Positions 49,805 to 60,189 of a stretch of DNA of 64,000 nucleotides are shown piece after piece. Origin of the DNA: Isoptericola halotolerans (GTDB lineage: Bacteria > Actinomycetota > Actinomycetes > Actinomycetales > Cellulomonadaceae); assembly GCF_013149785.1 (NCBI RefSeq), contig NZ_JABEZU010000001.1:1-64000 (forward strand), in the 5' to 3' direction. Made by a program: the position numbers and the translations under genes. Position 1 is the first letter of the stretch, and each line of letters begins with the position of its first letter. A model generated the notes under the pieces. That model saw nothing but the letters and a program-made list of their open reading frames with translations. It was not told the DNA's origin and ran no database searches.

Positions 49805-50824
49805 ATGCGCAGCGACCCCCGCAAGGTGCCCGTCGTCGTCCTCGCCGGACACCTGGGCGCCGGCAAGACCACCCTGCTCAACCACCTGCTGACACGGCCC
49901 GGCGCGCGCGTCGGGGTGGTCGTCAACGACTTCGGGGACATCGACGTCGACGCCGGGCTGGTCACCGGTCAGATCGACGAGCCGGCGGCGATCTCCGGCG
50001 GCTGCCTGTGCTGCCTGCCGGACGCCGGCGGCCTCGACGACGCGCTGGAGGTCCTCACCGCGCCGCGGCGCGGGCTCGACGTCGTCCTCGTCGAGGCGAG
50101 CGGGATCGCCGACCCGGTGACCCTCGCCCGGCTCGTCCGCTTCAGCGGCGTCGAGCGCGTGCGCCCCGGGGGAGTGGTCGACGTGATCGACGCCGGCGAG
50201 CACTTCGAGACCGTCGACACCGGTGCGGACCCGCCGGTCCGGCACGCGGCGGCGTCCCTCGTGGTGGTCAACAAGCTCGACCTGCTGGCACCGGACGAAC
50301 GGGAGGCCACGTTCGCCCGCATCGGCGAGCGGGTGCGCGGGCGCAACCCCCGGGCGCACGTGGTGGCGACGGACCACGGCCGGATCGACCCCGACCTGGT
50401 CTACGACGCCGCCCTGGACGAGGACCCGCCCGACCAGCTGCCGCTCGCTGCCCTGCTGCGCGAGGAGCGCACGCAGCACCATGTGCACGCCGACGCCGTC
50501 AGCGTCCCGGCACAGGGCCCGGTCAGCCCGAGCCGGCTCGTCGACCTGCTGGAGGATCCGCCCCCGGGGGTCTACCGGATGAAGGGGCACGTCGCGGTGC
50601 GCACGACCCGCGGCGTGCGCACCTACCTGGTGAACGTCGTCGGGCGGTCGGTGCACGTCGCGAGCGCGGCGGCGCCGCCCGCCGGGGAGGGTGTCGTCGC
50701 GATCGGCATGCACCTGGACACCACCGCCGTCCGGGAGCAGGTCGCGGATGCGCTGGCGACACGTGACGTCCCTGACGCCCGCGGCTTCTCCCGCCTGCAG
50801 CGTCACCGACGGCTGAGCCGCTGA
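49805..50824 (+). CDS. CobW/COG0523-family GTPase, putative zinc metallochaperone
   Basis: A 339-residue G3E GTPase. The P-loop GHLGAGKTT is at 15-23, the metal motif GGCLCC has Cys67, Cys69 and Cys70, the Walker B-like VLVEASGIADP is near 100, and NKLD near 155. A CobW C-terminal domain follows (VYRMKGHVAVRTTRG). COG0523 proteins of this kind deliver zinc to client enzymes during zinc starvation. A Zur-like palindrome 42 bases upstream supports zinc control. It is divergent from the ArsR/efflux pair, so both sides of metal balance meet here. Confidence 0.9.
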   Translation: MRSDPRKVPVVVLAGHLGAGKTTLLNHLLTRPGARVGVVVNDFGDIDVDAGLVTGQIDEPAAISGGCLCCLPDAGGLDDALEVLTAPRRGLDVVLVEASGIADPVTLARLVRFSGVERVRPGGVVDVIDAGEHFETVDTGADPPVRHAAASLVVVNKLDLLAPDEREATFARIGERVRGRNPRAHVVATDHGRIDPDLVYDAALDEDPPDQLPLAALLREERTQHHVHADAVSVPAQGPVSPSRLVDLLEDPPPGVYRMKGHVAVRTTRGVRTYLVNVVGRSVHVASAAAPPAGEGVVAIGMHLDTTAVREQVADALATRDVPDARGFSRLQRHRRLSR

Positions 50825-50885: not shown

Positions 50886-51242
50886 GTGAAGCAGCCGCGA
50901 CCGCTCGAGCAGGCAGCGAAGGTGATCGTGAACGACCAACTGACTCATGGCGGCGTGCGTATCGACCCGTCCCGCGCCCACTGGGCGATGTGGGGCGAGG
51001 TGGACGGCGCCGTGCAGAAGCGGGTGCAGGCCGACCTGGCCGAGCACCTCCGTCGGACGGGCGAGGAGCCCCTCACGGTGGACCTCGCCGAGGTGACCTT
51101 CATCGACTCGGGGGGCCTGCGGCTTCTCTACACCGCGGCGGAGACGAAGCCGACCCCGCCGCGCCTCGTCGACGCGCCGGGCAAGGTCCTCGACCTGCTG
51201 AGGATCAGCGGGGTCGATACGATGTTCGTCCTCGACAACTGA
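50886..51242 (+). CDS. STAS-domain anti-sigma factor antagonist
   Basis: A 118-residue STAS protein. The conserved core LTVDLAEVTFIDSGGLRLLY is at about residues 63-82, with Ser75 in the DSGG loop as the expected phosphorylation site. In partner switching, the unphosphorylated form binds the anti-sigma kinase and frees sigma. GTG 50886 follows a possible TATGAC -10 (50875-50880), so the transcript may be leaderless. The RsbW-like gene begins 14 bases after its stop. Confidence 0.87.
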   Translation: MKQPRPLEQAAKVIVNDQLTHGGVRIDPSRAHWAMWGEVDGAVQKRVQADLAEHLRRTGEEPLTVDLAEVTFIDSGGLRLLYTAAETKPTPPRLVDAPGKVLDLLRISGVDTMFVLDN

Positions 51243-51256
51243 GGAGGACGAACTTG

Positions 51257-51718
51257 GTGGATCAGACGCTTCCCCAGGCGCGAGCTCCCCGAGGTTTCCG
51301 CGAGGTGCGTTCCTGGCCTCTGCTGGAGGTCGACGAGCTGGCCGTGCTCCGTGACGACCTCGGCTCCGTGATGCCGGGGCGCCCGGGCGCGAGGCTCGAG
51401 GACGTCCCGGAGTCCGTGATCCTGGTCGCCAGCGAGCTGGCGACCAACGCCCTGAGCTACGCCGGCGGACCGGCGATCGTCCGGCTGTCGGCGCGCGACG
51501 GCGAGTACCTGCTCGAGGTGGTCGACCGCGCCCCCGACCGCGTGCCCGAGCGGGTCGCCGACCGTCCCACGGGCCAGGGTGGCTTCGGCCTCCTGCTCGC
51601 GGCACGGCTCGCCGACGAGGTCGGGTGGTGCCGCACCGAGAACGCGAAGCACGTGTGGGCCCGGTTCACCGTGAGCTCCGGCGTGCACACCCGGGACCAG
51701 GCCGGCCTGGCCGTCTGA
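51257..51718 (+). CDS. RsbW-like anti-sigma factor / histidine-kinase-fold ATPase
   Basis: A 153-residue GHKL-fold protein. The N-box is ELATNALSYAG near residue 55, G1 is LEVVDRAPDRVP, and the G2 lid is GQGGFGLLLAARLADEVGW near 105. It should bind ATP and either phosphorylate the STAS partner or hold a sigma factor. GTG 51257 has GAGGAGGA at the right spacing; a TTG codon just before it is less likely. It converges, 12 bases apart, with the phytochrome-phosphatase gene. Confidence 0.87.
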   Translation: MDQTLPQARAPRGFREVRSWPLLEVDELAVLRDDLGSVMPGRPGARLEDVPESVILVASELATNALSYAGGPAIVRLSARDGEYLLEVVDRAPDRVPERVADRPTGQGGFGLLLAARLADEVGWCRTENAKHVWARFTVSSGVHTRDQAGLAV

Positions 51719-51730
51719 CCGGCCGGGCCG

Positions 51731-53983
51731 TCAGTCGCGACGCAGCACCAGCAGGGTCGCGTCGTCGTCCGAGCCCGGGTCCCGCACCAGCTCCAGGAGG
51801 CGGGCGGCCCGGGTGGTCTGCCCGGTGGTGGCGCGCAGCCGCTCCAGCGAGTCGACGATCGACTCGTCGCGGCGCTCGACCAGCCCGTCGCTGTAGAGCA
51901 CCAGGGCACCGCCGCGCTCGACGGTCGCCGACCCGGAGCGGTCGTCCCGGGTGCCGACCCCCAGCGGCGGCGCACCCAGCACCGGCACCGTCGAGGCGCC
52001 GTCGGGCCCGACGACGACGGGCGGCGGGTGGCCCGCTGTGACGTACTCGACCGCGCCCGACGCCGTGTCGACGACGGCGACGACCACCGTGGCGACCTGC
52101 CCCGGCAGGGTGGCGCGCACCAGCTGGTCGACCTGGCCGACGGCACGCACGGCGGGGCTGCCGGTGAGCATCAGGGCCCGCAGCGCGTTGCGGAGCTGGC
52201 CCATCGTGGCGGCTGCCGTCAGGCCGTGGCCGGAGACGTCGCCGACGACGAGCGCCAGCCGGTCGCCGTCCAGGGGCAGCGCGTCGTACCAGTCGCCGCC
52301 GGCCAGGCCGCCGCCGGTCGGCTCGTACAGCGCCTCCAGCGTCCAGCCGTCGATCTGCGGCAGCTCCGTCGGCAGCAGGCTCCGCTGCAGCGTGGCGGCT
52401 GCCCGGATGTCGCGACGACCGCGCAGCAGCAACCCCTCGGCGAGGTAGGAGCGCAGCGAGGTGGCGACGTCGACCTGGTCGTCCGTCCACGGTTCGCTCG
52501 TGCCGCGCACGACCTCCCGCCACCGTGCGAACGACTTGCGGGGGGAGAGCCGGACGGAGTCGCCCTCCCGGTGCGCGATCGCCTTGTTGTGGGGGTCTCC
52601 ACCCCAGTCCACGCTCCGCACGACCTCGTCGCGCAGCCAGACCGTCACGCTGCCACCGGGCACGACGAGCGCCAGGAGTCCCGCCGAGGCCGGCACGAGG
52701 CCCGCCACGTCGGGGACGTCCCGGGCGAGCCGGTGGGAGACCAGGACCTCGTCGACCTGCGCGGCGAGCGCGCGAGCGATGCGTTCGCACGTCTCGTCGT
52801 CGGGGGCGGACCCCTCACGGCCCACGCGTCCTTCCGCGACGACGAACGCGCCGTCGGCCGGGACCAGGTCGAGCAGCCCGGGCTCACCGGTCAGGGCGTC
52901 GGCGAGCGGGACGTCGTCGTCACGCGTCAGCGCGACGAGGCGGGCGAGGACGCCGTCCGACCGGCGCGACGCCGAGGCGCGGTCGTCCTCGGCCTGCGTC
53001 ACGAGCCGCCCGGACAGCGTCGATCCGAGGAACTCCGCCGCGGCGCGGGCGGCGTACGACGGCGCGTGCGGGCCGGCGTAGTGGTGGCAGGCGACGAGGC
53101 CCCACAGCCGCCCGTCACGCAGCAGGGAGATGGACATCGACGCGCGCACACCCATGTTCTGCAGGTACTCGACATGGATCGGCGAGACGCTGCGCAGCGT
53201 GCCGTAGGTGAGGTCGAGGGGCTGCGCGGTGACCGGGTCGTCGGTGGGCACGATCGGGGCGGGCACGTAGTCCACGTCCGAGATGAGCCGTATCCAGTTC
53301 TTCTCGTACAGGGCGCGCGCTTGTGGCGGGATGTCCGACGCCGGGTAGTGCAGCCCGAGGAACGGGTTGAGGTCGTCGCGGCGCGCCTCGGAGACCACCT
53401 CGCCGTTGTCCTCGGCGTCGAAGCGGTAGAGCATCACGCGGTCGAACCCGGTCAGACGGCGCACCTGTCGGACCGCGACGTCGTACAGCTCCGCGAGCGA
53501 CGCGGTGCGGTCGAGCTCGGTCAGGGCGTCCCGGACCGGCTCGAAGGTGCTGGAATAGGTCAGTCGGGGGTGGCTGGAGAACGGTTCGAGCTCGACGACC
53601 AGCACCGGGGGGCGCGCGTCGGCGGCTGTGGCCGGGACGTGGTGCAGCACCGCCTCGAAGCGTTCCACGGCGCCACGCACGGTGACCTCGAGGTCGAGGG
53701 GGTTGCGCAGCCGGGGGTCGTCGACCTGTGTCACGTGGGTGAGCACCGCCGTGGCGGCGCCGTCGCCGAGCACCTCCGCGAGGGTGGAGCCGAGGACGGC
53801 CTGCGGCTCTCGGCCGAGGACCGCGAGAGTGCTCTCGGAGCACTGGGTGACGACGCCGTCGTCCGTGCGCAGCGCCAGCAGGGCCCCCCGCGGCTGGACA
53901 CTGCCCGGGACGTGGATGGGCTCGCGGGCGCAGTTGTCCAGGTCGATGGCTTCCCCGGGGGCGAGGAAAGCGCTGTCGGCCAT
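51731..53983 (-). CDS. Bacteriophytochrome fused to a SpoIIE/PP2C phosphatase
   Basis: A 750-residue protein. Residues 1-130 are the PAS domain with the biliverdin-attaching Cys18 in NCAREPIHVPGS. Residues about 145-320 are the GAF domain with LHYPASDIPPQA (DIP 217-219) and SPIHVEYLQNMGV with His270. Residues about 325-515 are the PHY domain with the PRKSF tongue motif (481-485). Residues about 525-750 are a SpoIIE phosphatase with GGDWYD (562-567), GDVSGHG, YSDGLVE and a DDDATLL ending. There is no histidine-kinase domain. The expected role is red/far-red light control of dephosphorylation of a STAS antagonist; the STAS and RsbW-like genes are immediately adjacent. GGGAGA precedes ATG 53983. 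No heme oxygenase gene lies in the window. Confidence 0.92.
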   Translation of the reverse strand: MADSAFLAPGEAIDLDNCAREPIHVPGSVQPRGALLALRTDDGVVTQCSESTLAVLGREPQAVLGSTLAEVLGDGAATAVLTHVTQVDDPRLRNPLDLEVTVRGAVERFEAVLHHVPATAADARPPVLVVELEPFSSHPRLTYSSTFEPVRDALTELDRTASLAELYDVAVRQVRRLTGFDRVMLYRFDAEDNGEVVSEARRDDLNPFLGLHYPASDIPPQARALYEKNWIRLISDVDYVPAPIVPTDDPVTAQPLDLTYGTLRSVSPIHVEYLQNMGVRASMSISLLRDGRLWGLVACHHYAGPHAPSYAARAAAEFLGSTLSGRLVTQAEDDRASASRRSDGVLARLVALTRDDDVPLADALTGEPGLLDLVPADGAFVVAEGRVGREGSAPDDETCERIARALAAQVDEVLVSHRLARDVPDVAGLVPASAGLLALVVPGGSVTVWLRDEVVRSVDWGGDPHNKAIAHREGDSVRLSPRKSFARWREVVRGTSEPWTDDQVDVATSLRSYLAEGLLLRGRRDIRAAATLQRSLLPTELPQIDGWTLEALYEPTGGGLAGGDWYDALPLDGDRLALVVGDVSGHGLTAAATMGQLRNALRALMLTGSPAVRAVGQVDQLVRATLPGQVATVVVAVVDTASGAVEYVTAGHPPPVVVGPDGASTVPVLGAPPLGVGTRDDRSGSATVERGGALVLYSDGLVERRDESIVDSLERLRATTGQTTRAARLLELVRDPGSDDDATLLVLRRD

Positions 53984-54087
53984 AGCGTCTCCCGGTCTGG
54001 TGTGCACGATAGGGGCAGGATACGGGCGTGATGGTGACCGAGTCGCCGTCCTCGTCGTCGTGCTCGCTGTCGGGGCCCGGCCTCGGG

Positions 54088-55032
54088 CTACCTGCTCTCG
54101 ACGAGGCCGATCGGTGCGGCGCTCGCGTTGAAGGCCCCGCGAGCAGCGGGCCAGCTGTTCCCCTCGACGTGCAGCGCGGTGCGGAGGTACGCGGTGCTCA
54201 GCCGCTGGACGACGGCCACCCGCTCGGGGTCCTCGTCGGTGGTCTCGGCGACCTCGTACCCGACGATCCCGCCGAGCGCGTGCTCGGCACCGTGGAGGGT
54301 CAGGAGGTCGGTCGCCCCGGGGCTGAACCGGTAGGCGTCCGTGAACCAGTCGGGTCCGCGGCTCGACATCATGGACTGGTCCTGGTCGCCCGCGACCACG
54401 AGCGTCGGCGTGGTCAGCTCCTGGAACGAGGGGTGCATGAAGGGGAAGTTCTCCTGCGCGAACGGGTGCAGGTCGTCGCCGGCCACGCCGGTGGCGGCGA
54501 ACAGGATGCCCGCGCCGACGCGACCGTCGGACAGGTCCTCGCCGACGCGACCCGCCTCGTCGAGGATCCGCGCGCCGAGGAGCGCCTGGGCGGTCTGCCC
54601 GCCCCAGGAGTGACCGGTGGCGGCGACGCGGCTGCGGTCGACACGGCCGGCGAGCCCCGGCACGGCGGCCTCGACGGTGTCGAGCTGGTCGAGGGTGCGT
54701 GTCAGGTCCGCGATCCGTTCGGTCCAGATCGTCGGGAACACCGGGTGGTCGAACCCGAAGCCGTTCCGGCGTGAGTCCAGGTGCGTGGGCTGGATGACGA
54801 CGAACCCGCGGGAGGCCCAGAACGCCGTGAGCGGTGCGTACCCGTCGAGGTTCCACCCGTTGCCGTGGGAGAACAGCACGACGGGGAGGTTCGTGCCGGT
54901 CACCGGGGCCGAGACGCGCACCTCCAGCGGGACCGGTCGGCCGGGGGCGGTCAGCCCGACGGGAGCGACGGAGACGACCGGGGTGCCGGCCCCGACGACG
55001 TCGTCCAGCGTGCCGACGATCGATGAGCTCAT
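54088..55032 (-). CDS. Alpha/beta hydrolase, PAF-acetylhydrolase/chlorophyllase-like
   Basis: A 314-residue alpha/beta hydrolase. The oxyanion region is VVLFSHGNGWNLDGY near residue 52, the nucleophile elbow GHSWGG near 140, the acid in VVAGDQDQSM near 215 and the His in GAEHALGG near 255. It should cleave an ester. No signal peptide is visible. It is divergent from a TetR gene with a strong palindrome between them, so expression is probably regulated. Confidence 0.85.
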   Translation of the reverse strand: MSSSIVGTLDDVVGAGTPVVSVAPVGLTAPGRPVPLEVRVSAPVTGTNLPVVLFSHGNGWNLDGYAPLTAFWASRGFVVIQPTHLDSRRNGFGFDHPVFPTIWTERIADLTRTLDQLDTVEAAVPGLAGRVDRSRVAATGHSWGGQTAQALLGARILDEAGRVGEDLSDGRVGAGILFAATGVAGDDLHPFAQENFPFMHPSFQELTTPTLVVAGDQDQSMMSSRGPDWFTDAYRFSPGATDLLTLHGAEHALGGIVGYEVAETTDEDPERVAVVQRLSTAYLRTALHVEGNSWPAARGAFNASAAPIGLVESR

Positions 55033-55094
55033 GACGTTCCTTCCTGGGAGGGGTGGCGCTCTGCGATACTCGTTATCGGAGCGCTGTTCCGGTA

Positions 55095-55119
55095 CATTAC
55101 GGAACGCTGCTCCGTAATG
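55095..55119. promoter_or_regulatory. TetR operator CATTACGGA-N7-TCCGTAATG
   Basis: A perfect nine-base inverted repeat with a seven-base centre, between the divergent hydrolase and TetR genes. A related degenerate copy (TCGGAGCGCTGTTCCG) begins at about 55076. It would cover the promoters of both genes. Confidence 0.75.
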
Positions 55120-55152
55120 CAAGCACGTGCCGAGGAGCTCGAGGAGAAGCGC

Positions 55153-55749
55153 ATGGCTGAAGCCCAGGGGCAGCGCCCGCCCGGGCCGCGGTCCCCGCAG
55201 GTGGGCCGTCCACGCCGGAGTCGGCAGGCCCTGCTCGACGCCGCGGCGGAGGTCTTCGTCTCGTCCGGGGTGGACGCCCCGGTGCGGGAGATCGCGGCGC
55301 GGGCCGGCGTCGGCGTGGGGACGATCTACCGGCACTTCCCGACGCGTCCGGAGCTGGTGGTCGCGGTCTACCGTCACCAGGTCGAGGCCTGCGCGGAGGC
55401 CGGGCCGCGGCTGCTCGCGCAGTGCGCGACGCCCGAGGAGGCTCTGCGGGCCTGGGTGGAGCTGTTCGTGGAGTTCCTGGTCACCAAGCACGGGCTGGCC
55501 GACGTGCTGCGCGGAGACAGCGCCGGGTCCGACGCCCTGCACGCCTTCTTCGTCGACCGCCTGGTCCCCGTGTGCGGCTCGCTCCTCGACGCCGCGTTCG
55601 CGGAGGCGGGCACGGCTCCGCCGATCGACGCCTACAACGTGCTCAAGGGCATCGGCAACCTCTGCATCGGCGCGGAGGCCGACACCCGCTACGAGGCCGT
55701 GGGCCTCGTGCAGCTCCTCGTCACGGGCGTGCTCACCGGCAGGTCGTGA
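55153..55749 (+). CDS. TetR-family regulator of the adjacent hydrolase
   Basis: A 198-residue TetR protein with helix-turn-helix LLDAAAEVFVSSGVDAPV then AARAGVGVGTIYRHFPTRPE. ATG 55153 with GAGGAGAAG upstream is chosen; ATG 55117 would fall inside the operator. The C-terminal half has the layout of SbtR-like regulators (LADVLRGDSAGS). It is divergent from the hydrolase gene. Confidence 0.87.
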   Translation: MAEAQGQRPPGPRSPQVGRPRRSRQALLDAAAEVFVSSGVDAPVREIAARAGVGVGTIYRHFPTRPELVVAVYRHQVEACAEAGPRLLAQCATPEEALRAWVELFVEFLVTKHGLADVLRGDSAGSDALHAFFVDRLVPVCGSLLDAAFAEAGTAPPIDAYNVLKGIGNLCIGAEADTRYEAVGLVQLLVTGVLTGRS

Positions 55750-55804
55750 CGCCCCGCTCGTCCGTGCGGCTGCGTGCTCGGGCGACCCGTCCTAGCGTCG
55801 AAGG

Positions 55805-58219: not shown

Positions 58220-59368
58220 TCACAGGGCGCGCGCGCCGAGCCAGGGCTCGAGGACGTCCTCGCTGCCGAGCCAGCGCAGGCCGCCGTCGCCGACCTCCTC
58301 TCCGGTGGCGAGCGCCTCGCCGAACGCGTCGAGGATCCGGTCGCGGATCATCCGGGACTCGTCCGGGTCGCCAGCGCCGACGACGAGGATGCGCGTGACG
58401 GGTGGCCGGTTGCCGGCGACCTCCTGCCAGGTGCCGAGGTCGGCGACGCACAGGGCGCCGCCGGCGCCGTCCCACAGGCAGACGGAGTCCGGGCGGTCGG
58501 GGACGTGGAACACGCCGCGGCTGCGGACGGGGCCGGTGCCCAGGTGCTCGATCTGCTCCAGGAGGCGCTCGGGGTGGAAGGGGCGGCGGGACTTCAGCAG
58601 CAGGCTCCAGCTGCGGTCCTGCGGGTCCTTCGCCGCCTGGCGTCCGCCGCGGGCACCGAGCGGGTGGGCCCGGCCCTCGGCGGCGACGGTGTCGTGGCTG
58701 CGGGCGGCGAGCTGGGCGACGTCGAGCTCGTGCAGGCCGTCGATGCGCTGGCTGTCGCCGGCGCGCAGGCGGTCGACCAGCCCGGCGCCGGTGGGGTCGT
58801 CGCCCGTGGTGACGACCACGTCGACCTGCTCGAGCTGGGCGGCGAGCGCCTCCCCGAGCGGGCGCTCGTCGTCGTCGGTCAGGGCGAGGCCGCGCTCGTC
58901 GACGAGGTCGTTGCCGAGGAGGTCGGACTCCACCCGGTCGAGGTCGACGACGGCGGTCGTGGCGGTGAAGCGCACCGACTCCAGGACCTCGCCGTGGGCG
59001 GTGTACGTGGCCAGCGCGCGCGCGACGGGCAGCGGTTCGGCCGTGACCGGCAGGGCGAGGACCAGGTCCGTCCAGCGACCGGTCTCGGCGAGCCGGGCGA
59101 GGGTGGGCACGGCGTCCTCGCGGACGCTGCAGGACACGCAGGCGTGCTCCAGCTCCACGGTCACGTCCTCGACCACGCCGGTCGAGTCGACGACCACGCG
59201 ACGCAGCGCGCCGTCGTCGGGCAGCAGGTCGTGACGGACGACGACGGCGCCCGGCGACGTGAGCGTGAGGCTCGCGGCGGTGGTGTCGCGCAGGACGGGG
59301 TCGGTGCTGACGAGCACGCTGAGCGCGGGCAGGTGGGCGTTCGCGGGCTGGTCCGGTCGGGAATGCAC
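58220..59368 (-). CDS. CobW-family protein resembling the ribosome-hibernation recruiter MRF
   Basis: A 382-residue protein. The C-terminal third is a clear CobW_C domain (LLKSRRPFHPERLLEQIEHL, SVCLWDGAGGALCVADLG). The N-terminal domain keeps the metal-motif region as ELEHACVSCSVRED but I see no Walker A P-loop where one should be (residues 15-30). This matches the mycobacterial protein MRF, encoded with zinc-independent ribosomal proteins, which recruits the hibernation factor to ribosomes during zinc starvation. Here it is divergent from exactly such an operon and shares its Zur-like sites. GTG 59368 has GAGGAGG upstream. Confidence 0.78.
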   Translation of the reverse strand: MHSRPDQPANAHLPALSVLVSTDPVLRDTTAASLTLTSPGAVVVRHDLLPDDGALRRVVVDSTGVVEDVTVELEHACVSCSVREDAVPTLARLAETGRWTDLVLALPVTAEPLPVARALATYTAHGEVLESVRFTATTAVVDLDRVESDLLGNDLVDERGLALTDDDERPLGEALAAQLEQVDVVVTTGDDPTGAGLVDRLRAGDSQRIDGLHELDVAQLAARSHDTVAAEGRAHPLGARGGRQAAKDPQDRSWSLLLKSRRPFHPERLLEQIEHLGTGPVRSRGVFHVPDRPDSVCLWDGAGGALCVADLGTWQEVAGNRPPVTRILVVGAGDPDESRMIRDRILDAFGEALATGEEVGDGGLRWLGSEDVLEPWLGARAL

Positions 59369-59382
59369 AGCGCCTCCTCGTG

Positions 59383-59400
59383 TTGAGAATGATAATCGTC
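59383..59400. promoter_or_regulatory. Zur-like box proximal to the MRF-like gene
   Basis: TTGAGAATGATAATCGTC fits TGAnAATGATnnTC, the classic Zur half-site pair, with an imperfect right arm. It lies 14 bases before the MRF-like GTG on the minus strand and 42 bases from the perfect box at 59424. Confidence 0.65.
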
Positions 59401-59423
59401 TCTGGCACACTCTAGCCCCTAGA

Positions 59424-59438
59424 TGAGAAGTGTTCTCA
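59424..59438. promoter_or_regulatory. Zur-like box TGAGAA-GTG-TTCTCA
   Basis: A perfect palindrome of six-base arms 42 bases upstream of the L28 gene. It is the same motif as at 49747-49763. Two sites in this divergent region would shut off the MRF-like gene and the ribosomal operon when zinc is sufficient. Confidence 0.78.
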
Positions 59439-59480
59439 AAGCGCCGCCCTGTCGCAGGACGTCGCGCCGGAAAGGAAGCC

Positions 59481-59717
59481 ATGTCCGCCCGCTGTCAGGT
59501 GCTCGGCACCGTCCCGGGGTTCGGCCACTCGATCTCGCACTCGCACGTGCGGACCAAGCGGCGGTTCAACCCCAACATCCAGAAGAAGCGCTACTGGGTC
59601 CCGTCCCTCGGTCGCACCGTCACCCTGCGCGTGAGCGCCAAGGGCATCAAGACGATCGACCGTGACGGCATCGACGTCGTCGTCGCTCGGATCCTGGCAC
59701 GAGGGGAGAAGGTCTGA
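59481..59717 (+). CDS. rpmB: 50S ribosomal protein L28, zinc-independent paralogue
   Basis: A 78-residue L28: [20 protein letters not shown], then [20 protein letters not shown]. Only one Cys is present, so the zinc ribbon (two CxxC pairs) of the C+ form is absent. It is the first of six C-minus ribosomal genes. AAAGGAAG precedes ATG 59481. Its stop overlaps the next start (TGATG). Confidence 0.95.
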
Positions 59718-59884
59718 TGGCATCCAAGGCTGACCTGCGTCCGATCATCAAGCTGCGCTCCACCGCGGGCACCGGCTTCACCTACGTGACGCGCAAGAAC
59801 CGCCGCAACAGCCCCGACCGGCTGACGCTGCGCAAGTACGACCCGGTCGTGCGCAAGCACGTCGAGTTCAAGGAGACCCGCTGA
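59717..59884 (+). CDS. rpmG: 50S ribosomal protein L33, zinc-independent paralogue
   Basis: A 55-residue L33 beginning [20 protein letters not shown] and ending HVEFKETR. It contains [20 protein letters not shown], where the zinc-binding Cys pairs of the C+ form are replaced. The start overlaps the L28 stop and the end overlaps the S14 start (TGATG), so translation is coupled. Confidence 0.95.
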
Positions 59885-60189
59885 TGGCCAAGAAGTCGAA
59901 GATCGCCGCGAACGAGCGCCGCCGTGAGGTCGTCGCCCGGTACGCCGAGCGTCGGGCCGAGCTGAAGCGGGTCATCGCGTCGCCGTCGTCCACCCACGAG
60001 GAGCGCGCCGGCGCCGTCCTGGAGCTGCAGCGCCAGCCCCGCGACGCCAGCGCCACCCGGGTGCGCAACCGCGACGCCGCCGACGGCCGCCCCCGCGGCT
60101 ACGTCGGCAAGTTCGGGCTCTCCCGCATCCGGATGCGCCAGATGGCGCACCGCGGCGAGCTGCCCGGCGTGACGAAGTCGAGCTGGTGA
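59884..60189 (+). CDS. rpsN: 30S ribosomal protein S14, zinc-independent paralogue
   Basis: A 101-residue long-form S14 ([40 protein letters not shown], ending GVTKSSW). It has no Cys; the short zinc-binding form has two CxxC pairs. It replaces the zinc form during zinc starvation. Coupled to L33. Confidence 0.95.

Follow-up and report, generated by a model that had tools for sequence, protein, structure and literature searches.

The first 64,000 nucleotides of contig NZ_JABEZU010000001.1 of Isoptericola halotolerans (Actinomycetota), the whole stretch analysed here and called the window below, carry a bacteriophytochrome fused to a phosphatase and, facing it, genes for an antagonist and a kinase of the kind found in partner switches. 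The largest of the three genes, at 51731..53983 on the minus strand, codes for a bacteriophytochrome-PPM phosphatase of 750 residues. On the plus strand lie a STAS gene (50886..51242, 118 residues when read from its first GTG) and a gene for an RsbW/SpoIIAB-like GHKL kinase (51257..51718). The convergent kinase and phosphatase frames, whose ends are at 51718 and 51731, are 12 bases apart, as a first-pass annotation made from the letters of this DNA had reported. That annotation had proposed that the trio is a partner switch with red/far-red light as its input, ending in the release of a sigma factor. The genome (3.97 Mb in 6 contigs) and its relatives support this proposal in part; they do not support its last step in the form of a SigB/F/G-type factor.

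Pfam models match the 750-residue protein, each above its cut-off, as PAS_2 (residues 18-134), GAF (163-312), PHY (349-517) and SpoIIE (572-749, 134.6 bits for a cut-off of 25), so that the frame with a SpoIIE/PP2C output is where it had been placed. The residues of the chromophore pocket that had been claimed as hallmarks are all found in the alignment: Cys18, the DIP motif (Asp217-Ile218-Pro219), His270 and, in the tongue, PRKSF at 481-485. At the other end, the metal-binding Asp residues of the phosphatase domain (564, 567, 582, 699, 740 and 741) are retained in each of the 112 aligned rows. Searches of the PDB return a Stigmatella bacteriophytochrome as top match for the sensory half (E 4.9e-110), and Rv1364c (E 2.8e-31) together with SpoIIE for the phosphatase half. 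The protein is not an equivalog of BphP in the sense of NCBIfam, because it scores 352.9 bits on NF041576 for a cut-off of 1040, though the sensory module is present: this model of 622 positions aligns with residues 11-514, which are the sensory part. It is also the only PHY protein found in its genome. An AlphaFold model (mean predicted local distance difference test score, pLDDT, of 86.0, falling below 50 in the tongue region 469-488; predicted template modelling score 0.64) connects PHY to the phosphatase by a single helix, residues 501-536, which is probably the link from sensor to phosphatase. Its length seems tightly kept. The tongue motif and the catalytic GGD motif could both be located in 96 of the 112 rows, at a distance of 81 residues in 94 of these and of 80 in two; a cruder count from a Trp (106 rows) gives 63 residues for 91 rows, 60 for 13 and 62 for two. 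Coiled-coil linkers have been proposed to relay signals from varied sensors to PPM phosphatases via the ordering of dimers, in an article whose available text makes no mention of phytochromes (PMC12143880).

The STAS protein passes the Pfam cut-offs of both STAS_2 (41.2 bits for 29.2) and STAS; it stays under those of the NCBIfam models TIGR00377 (35.7 bits for 53.45) and TIGR02886 (23 for 114.75). Its translation probably begins at the GTG at 50928 rather than at 50886, yielding 104 residues, because its relatives start MKDDKNHGGVRID or MDDKLIHGGVRID. The kinase would probably start at GTG 51257, with an associated GGAGG sharing bases with the stop codon of the STAS gene. A profile search of the PDB places SpoIIAA and RsbV among the matches of the STAS protein, where Ser75 (in the numbering of the 118-residue form), present in 24 of 24 rows, is the probable phospho-acceptor. 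The kinase is recognised by HATPase_c_2 (35.5 bits for a cut-off of 27.4), and Glu52 and Asn56 of its N-box are invariant across 25 rows. Its sequence profile found no chain in the PDB; a fold search with its predicted structure (pLDDT 85.3) did give matches, with SpoIIAB, SigF-anti-sigma and RsbW structures at the top. With the Asp-Ser of the STAS protein and the E-x-x-x-N box of the kinase retained in 32 of the 32 loci checked, and with the same three genes recurring across genera, the view that these are the three parts of a partner switch is supported.

How far the three genes belong together can be judged from their distribution. Relatives of the phytochrome at E <= 1e-60 occur in 46 of 297 genomes of the order, some of them matching by the sensory part only, and 55 of the 121 genomes in the window's GTDB family have a phytochrome match. 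Leaving aside G253, with extra sequence between PHY and PP2C, and G364, with a broken frame, a PHY-PP2C protein is present in 53 family genomes: 49 have an intact pocket, three are pocketless and one has only a truncated form. The two genomes set aside both have a heme oxygenase, and neither shows a STAS match nearby; the frame of G253 (L266:6070-9354, 1094 residues, PHY and PP2C matches about 570 bases apart) is a different fusion. Neighbourhoods were scanned with profiles made from the STAS, kinase, phosphatase and sensory parts encoded in the window, a pair being counted within 2.5 kb. By this measure STAS and kinase genes accompany the PHY-PP2C gene in 39 of the 53 genomes, 33 in the convergent order and six in two other orders (in two of the six both lie upstream, on the strand of the phosphatase gene); the remaining 14 do not have both. 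For the intact proteins taken alone, the genomes with both genes number 33 of 49. A wider collection of 97 loci includes 29 with the convergent pair, 15 with both genes in other orders (some of these relying on weak profile matches, such as the STAS of L114 at E ~1e-4), 11 with one gene and 42 with none. It derives from the 112 aligned rows, in which some genomes are repeated, by removal of two rows at contig ends and of 13 that are repeats or likely repeats, not each checked (L084-L092, L095, L103, L109 and L115; seven with the convergent pair, six without).

When the genes within 9 kb were clustered in 41 loci that have the trio (12 labels, 11 genera), kinase and phosphatase were found under each of the 12 labels and STAS under 11, against six each for the next neighbour families. 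Those next families, a LacI-type regulator and an ABC ATPase to judge by their sequence starts, are generic and were discarded as a fourth conserved neighbour that might be the target. The surroundings of the phytochrome gene in the window have little else in common with 38 other loci: L046 shares a block at 58.2-60.8 kb, L068 a single transporter gene, and L047 and L048 a gene that is 33% identical. Of the 55 family genomes in which the phytochrome has a match, 50 also contain a relative of the kinase, compared with seven of the 66 others. Since the trio is kept across genera as its other neighbours change, the partnership appears to go beyond adjacency, and the comparison supports the view that phosphatase, STAS and kinase genes behave as one unit, albeit not a universal one. 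Several observations weigh against such a dedicated switch. The pair is not nearby in 14 of the 53 family genomes nor at most loci outside the family; in G172 and G368, to which we return below, the nearest STAS-kinase pair has no adjoining phosphatase gene; the correlation among the pairwise distances of the three proteins (r 0.80 to 0.93) is uncorrected for shared descent; and the genome of I. halotolerans has eight other SpoIIE-type matches, five other STAS matches and further kinases, which makes cross-talk possible. It might thus be that the STAS and kinase genes are mere neighbours of a phosphatase acting on some other protein, as the genomes without a nearby pair and the ability of that pair to stand alone would allow. 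Against this, three gene orders in the family, and more outside it, unite the same three genes amid neighbours that change, and we regard chance proximity as quite improbable.

Turning to the light input, the first-pass annotation had noted that there is no heme oxygenase. This is right for the window, where no match falls, and wrong for the genome, as the search for which it called reveals a single heme oxygenase (200.6 bits) on another contig, amid genes that look, from their sequence starts, like heme uptake. Across the 121 family genomes a heme oxygenase is present in 49 of the 49 with an intact phytochrome, in 37 of the 66 without a phytochrome match and in one of the four with pocketless forms only (Fisher p 5e-9 and 2e-4, values that treat related genomes as independent and are indicative only). 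As the 37 genomes attest, the enzyme also occurs in the absence of a phytochrome match. Convergent heme oxygenase and phytochrome matches lie close together in two genomes, within about 40 bases in G330 and about 150 in G314. Because the pocket is intact and the enzyme is found in every family genome with an intact protein, light as the input of the window protein, red/far-red as first proposed, is supported indirectly. The module could instead sense redox state or a metabolite, as the pocketless clade may do, given that those relatives lost the pocket yet retained the switch. A bacteriophytochrome is reportedly known that turned from light to redox sensing; our literature search found no paper on such a protein. 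The pocket residues checked in the window protein are in place, though, and its genome has the heme oxygenase, which leaves a non-light signal with little probability.

The pocketless proteins deserve attention of their own. There are seven, which form one clade (approximate likelihood ratio support, SH-aLRT, of 100) nested among intact proteins with the convergent pair, in a quick tree built from residue 335 onward. Three are of full length and lack the chromophore Cys; His270 is replaced in two of these, DIP changed in two, and their tongues end in RASE, RSSQ and RGSD. The other four, of 448-488 residues, are without PAS, GAF and tongue, so that a PHY remnant and the phosphatase are left. 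All seven keep the phosphatase Asp residues, and six have the convergent kinase and STAS genes beside them, the seventh being an additional copy in G299. G299 (L228, pair not nearby) and G312 (not among the loci read) have second copies that are truncated; each of these genomes also carries an intact protein, which lacks the pair. The sole PHY-PP2C match is pocketless in both G172 and G368 and is located away from the region that resembles the window. That region (L219 and L220) is recognisable on both sides and has kept STAS and kinase genes, with no match to 51680-55760: the phytochrome-phosphatase, a hydrolase and a TetR gene are absent there. Loss of the photoreceptor gene is the simplest reading, since the trio is present in other congeners; gain of the gene in the lineage of the window is an alternative that keeps some weight. 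The region is fluid, given that the stretch at 46.8-50.9 kb is likewise without a match there. Heme oxygenase is absent from G172, G298 and G308, which sit on separate branches of the pocketless clade in the gene tree. As a side observation, the pocketless trio of G172 (L062) stands beside sugar-catabolism genes, named from their sequence starts, and the counterparts of these genes in I. halotolerans (L193) are accompanied by a lone RsbW-like gene, with no PHY-PP2C gene there. It is tempting to see in this clade a light input shed by steps, from intact proteins through full-length pocketless ones to those deleted for PAS, GAF and tongue, with the trio kept and a target other than a SigB-type sigma factor. 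We hold this view tentatively, giving it a little less than an even chance. Were it true, these proteins would document in nature how a photoreceptor turned into a light-independent switch.

What, then, would the switch control? The first-pass annotation saw no sigma gene in the window, and indeed none of the 18 sigma region-2 matches of the genome falls there. The release of a sigma factor which it nonetheless envisaged receives no backing for the SigB/F/G type: none of the 121 family genomes, that of I. halotolerans included, exceeds the TIGR02980 cut-off of 234.35 bits, a threshold unchecked against an actinobacterial SigF. The genome has one long match, of 130.7 bits, and another of 20.7 bits; the former, a gene of 533 codons (L083:6394-7995), looks like the primary sigma factor by its length and N-terminus. 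Among the matches listed, the closest to the cut-off (213-221 bits) come from three genomes without a phytochrome match, and several other genomes with the trio have more than one match below it, up to four in genus g8, the second to fourth falling well short of the cut-off. Nor does a sigma gene follow the trio in any of the 41 loci. A SigB-type ending is therefore unlikely, the alternatives being another sigma factor or a protein that is not one. The kinase might still be an anti-sigma factor for, as an example, a factor resembling those of extracytoplasmic function (ECF): its model is similar to SpoIIAB and UsfX, two sigma-binding proteins, and the genome's many region-2 matches, like the multiple weak TIGR02980 matches of other trio genomes, would provide candidates. 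The empty count over the cut-off and the lack of a sigma gene after the trio speak against a sigma output, which we consider unlikely, though less so than the two rivals weighed above. Two other loci of this genome belong to the same world. At L190:3998-7380 a GAF-PP2C-HATPase protein of 779 residues is directly followed by a sigma factor that contains regions 2 and 4 as well as a SnoaL-like domain, and the two seem to form a separate switch with its sigma factor; this ECF-type factor was not adopted as the target, its own switch gene adjoining it. At L191:4936-8655 two STAS genes flank the gene of a PAS-PP2C-HATPase protein, forming another partner-switch cluster.

Taken together, the comparisons favour, with a probability of roughly 70%, a partner switch gated by red/far-red light whose target is probably not a sigma factor of the SigB/F/G type. 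In this switch, heme oxygenase would supply biliverdin, to be bound at Cys18; light would alter the PHY dimer, and the helix 501-536 would pass the change on to the phosphatase dimer and its metal site. The phosphatase would, in one of the two light states, strip the phosphate from Ser75 of the STAS protein, which, once free, would bind the kinase and pull it off its target, and in the other state the kinase would phosphorylate the STAS protein and hold the target again.

Other genes near the trio may be noted. An alpha/beta hydrolase (54088-55032, minus strand; Chlorophyllase and PAF-AH families above cut-off) is encoded 104 bases upstream of the phytochrome gene, in the same direction; the idea of an RsbQ-like helper was dropped because none of the 38 other loci has a match to its frame at E 1e-12. 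A CobW-family gene is located at 49805-50824 and small genes resembling those of ribosomal proteins lie within 58220-60189, a combination that we take to resemble a zinc-starvation gene set.

If the proposed switch is right, many actinobacteria drive a phosphatase-kinase-STAS system by red/far-red light, and phytochromes have there an output other than histidine kinases or cyclic-di-GMP enzymes, one whose partners are named and can be tested. The missing SigB-type sigma factor raises the question of what these bacteria regulate by such switches. Natural comparisons for the signalling from phytochrome to phosphatase are offered by the pocketless relatives, and the nearly fixed length of the linker makes proteins of this kind candidates for light-controlled phosphatases.

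The fusion itself is already known. Phytochromes with a SpoIIE/PPM phosphatase are one of several named effector classes in a previous article, with the architecture of the window protein; the accessible part of that article gives no partner genes, pocketless relatives or link to heme oxygenase (PMC9587094). Our literature search, which was thin on subscription papers and covered mainly titles and the beginnings of abstracts, found no description of STAS/RsbW partners or pocketless relatives of the fusion. What is new is the conserved trio, its occurrence together with heme oxygenase, the clade of pocketless proteins and the lack of a SigB-type sigma factor. Another bilin photoreceptor of actinobacteria, the photocobilin SasPcob, has likewise been proposed to interact with STAS, SpoIIE and PP2C proteins; it is a globin-type receptor of B12 and bilin, without a covalent Cys, and no phosphatase fusion is described in the portion of the article available (PMC10979010). 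RsbU and RsbP of Bacillus subtilis, with RsbV and RsbW, likewise combine a PPM phosphatase placed after a helical linker, a STAS antagonist and a GHKL kinase, but they have other sensors and SigB as their target, according to the available text (PMC12143880), whereas here no SigB-type sigma factor passes the cut-off. The closest solved relative of the phosphatase domain is Rv1364c of Mycobacterium tuberculosis (PDB 3ke6), which also has an RsbW domain, matched in turn by the model of the window's kinase. As far as its description goes in the same source (PMC12143880), Rv1364c is one fused chain with a PAS sensor, whereas the system of the window is distributed over three genes and has a phytochrome as its sensor.

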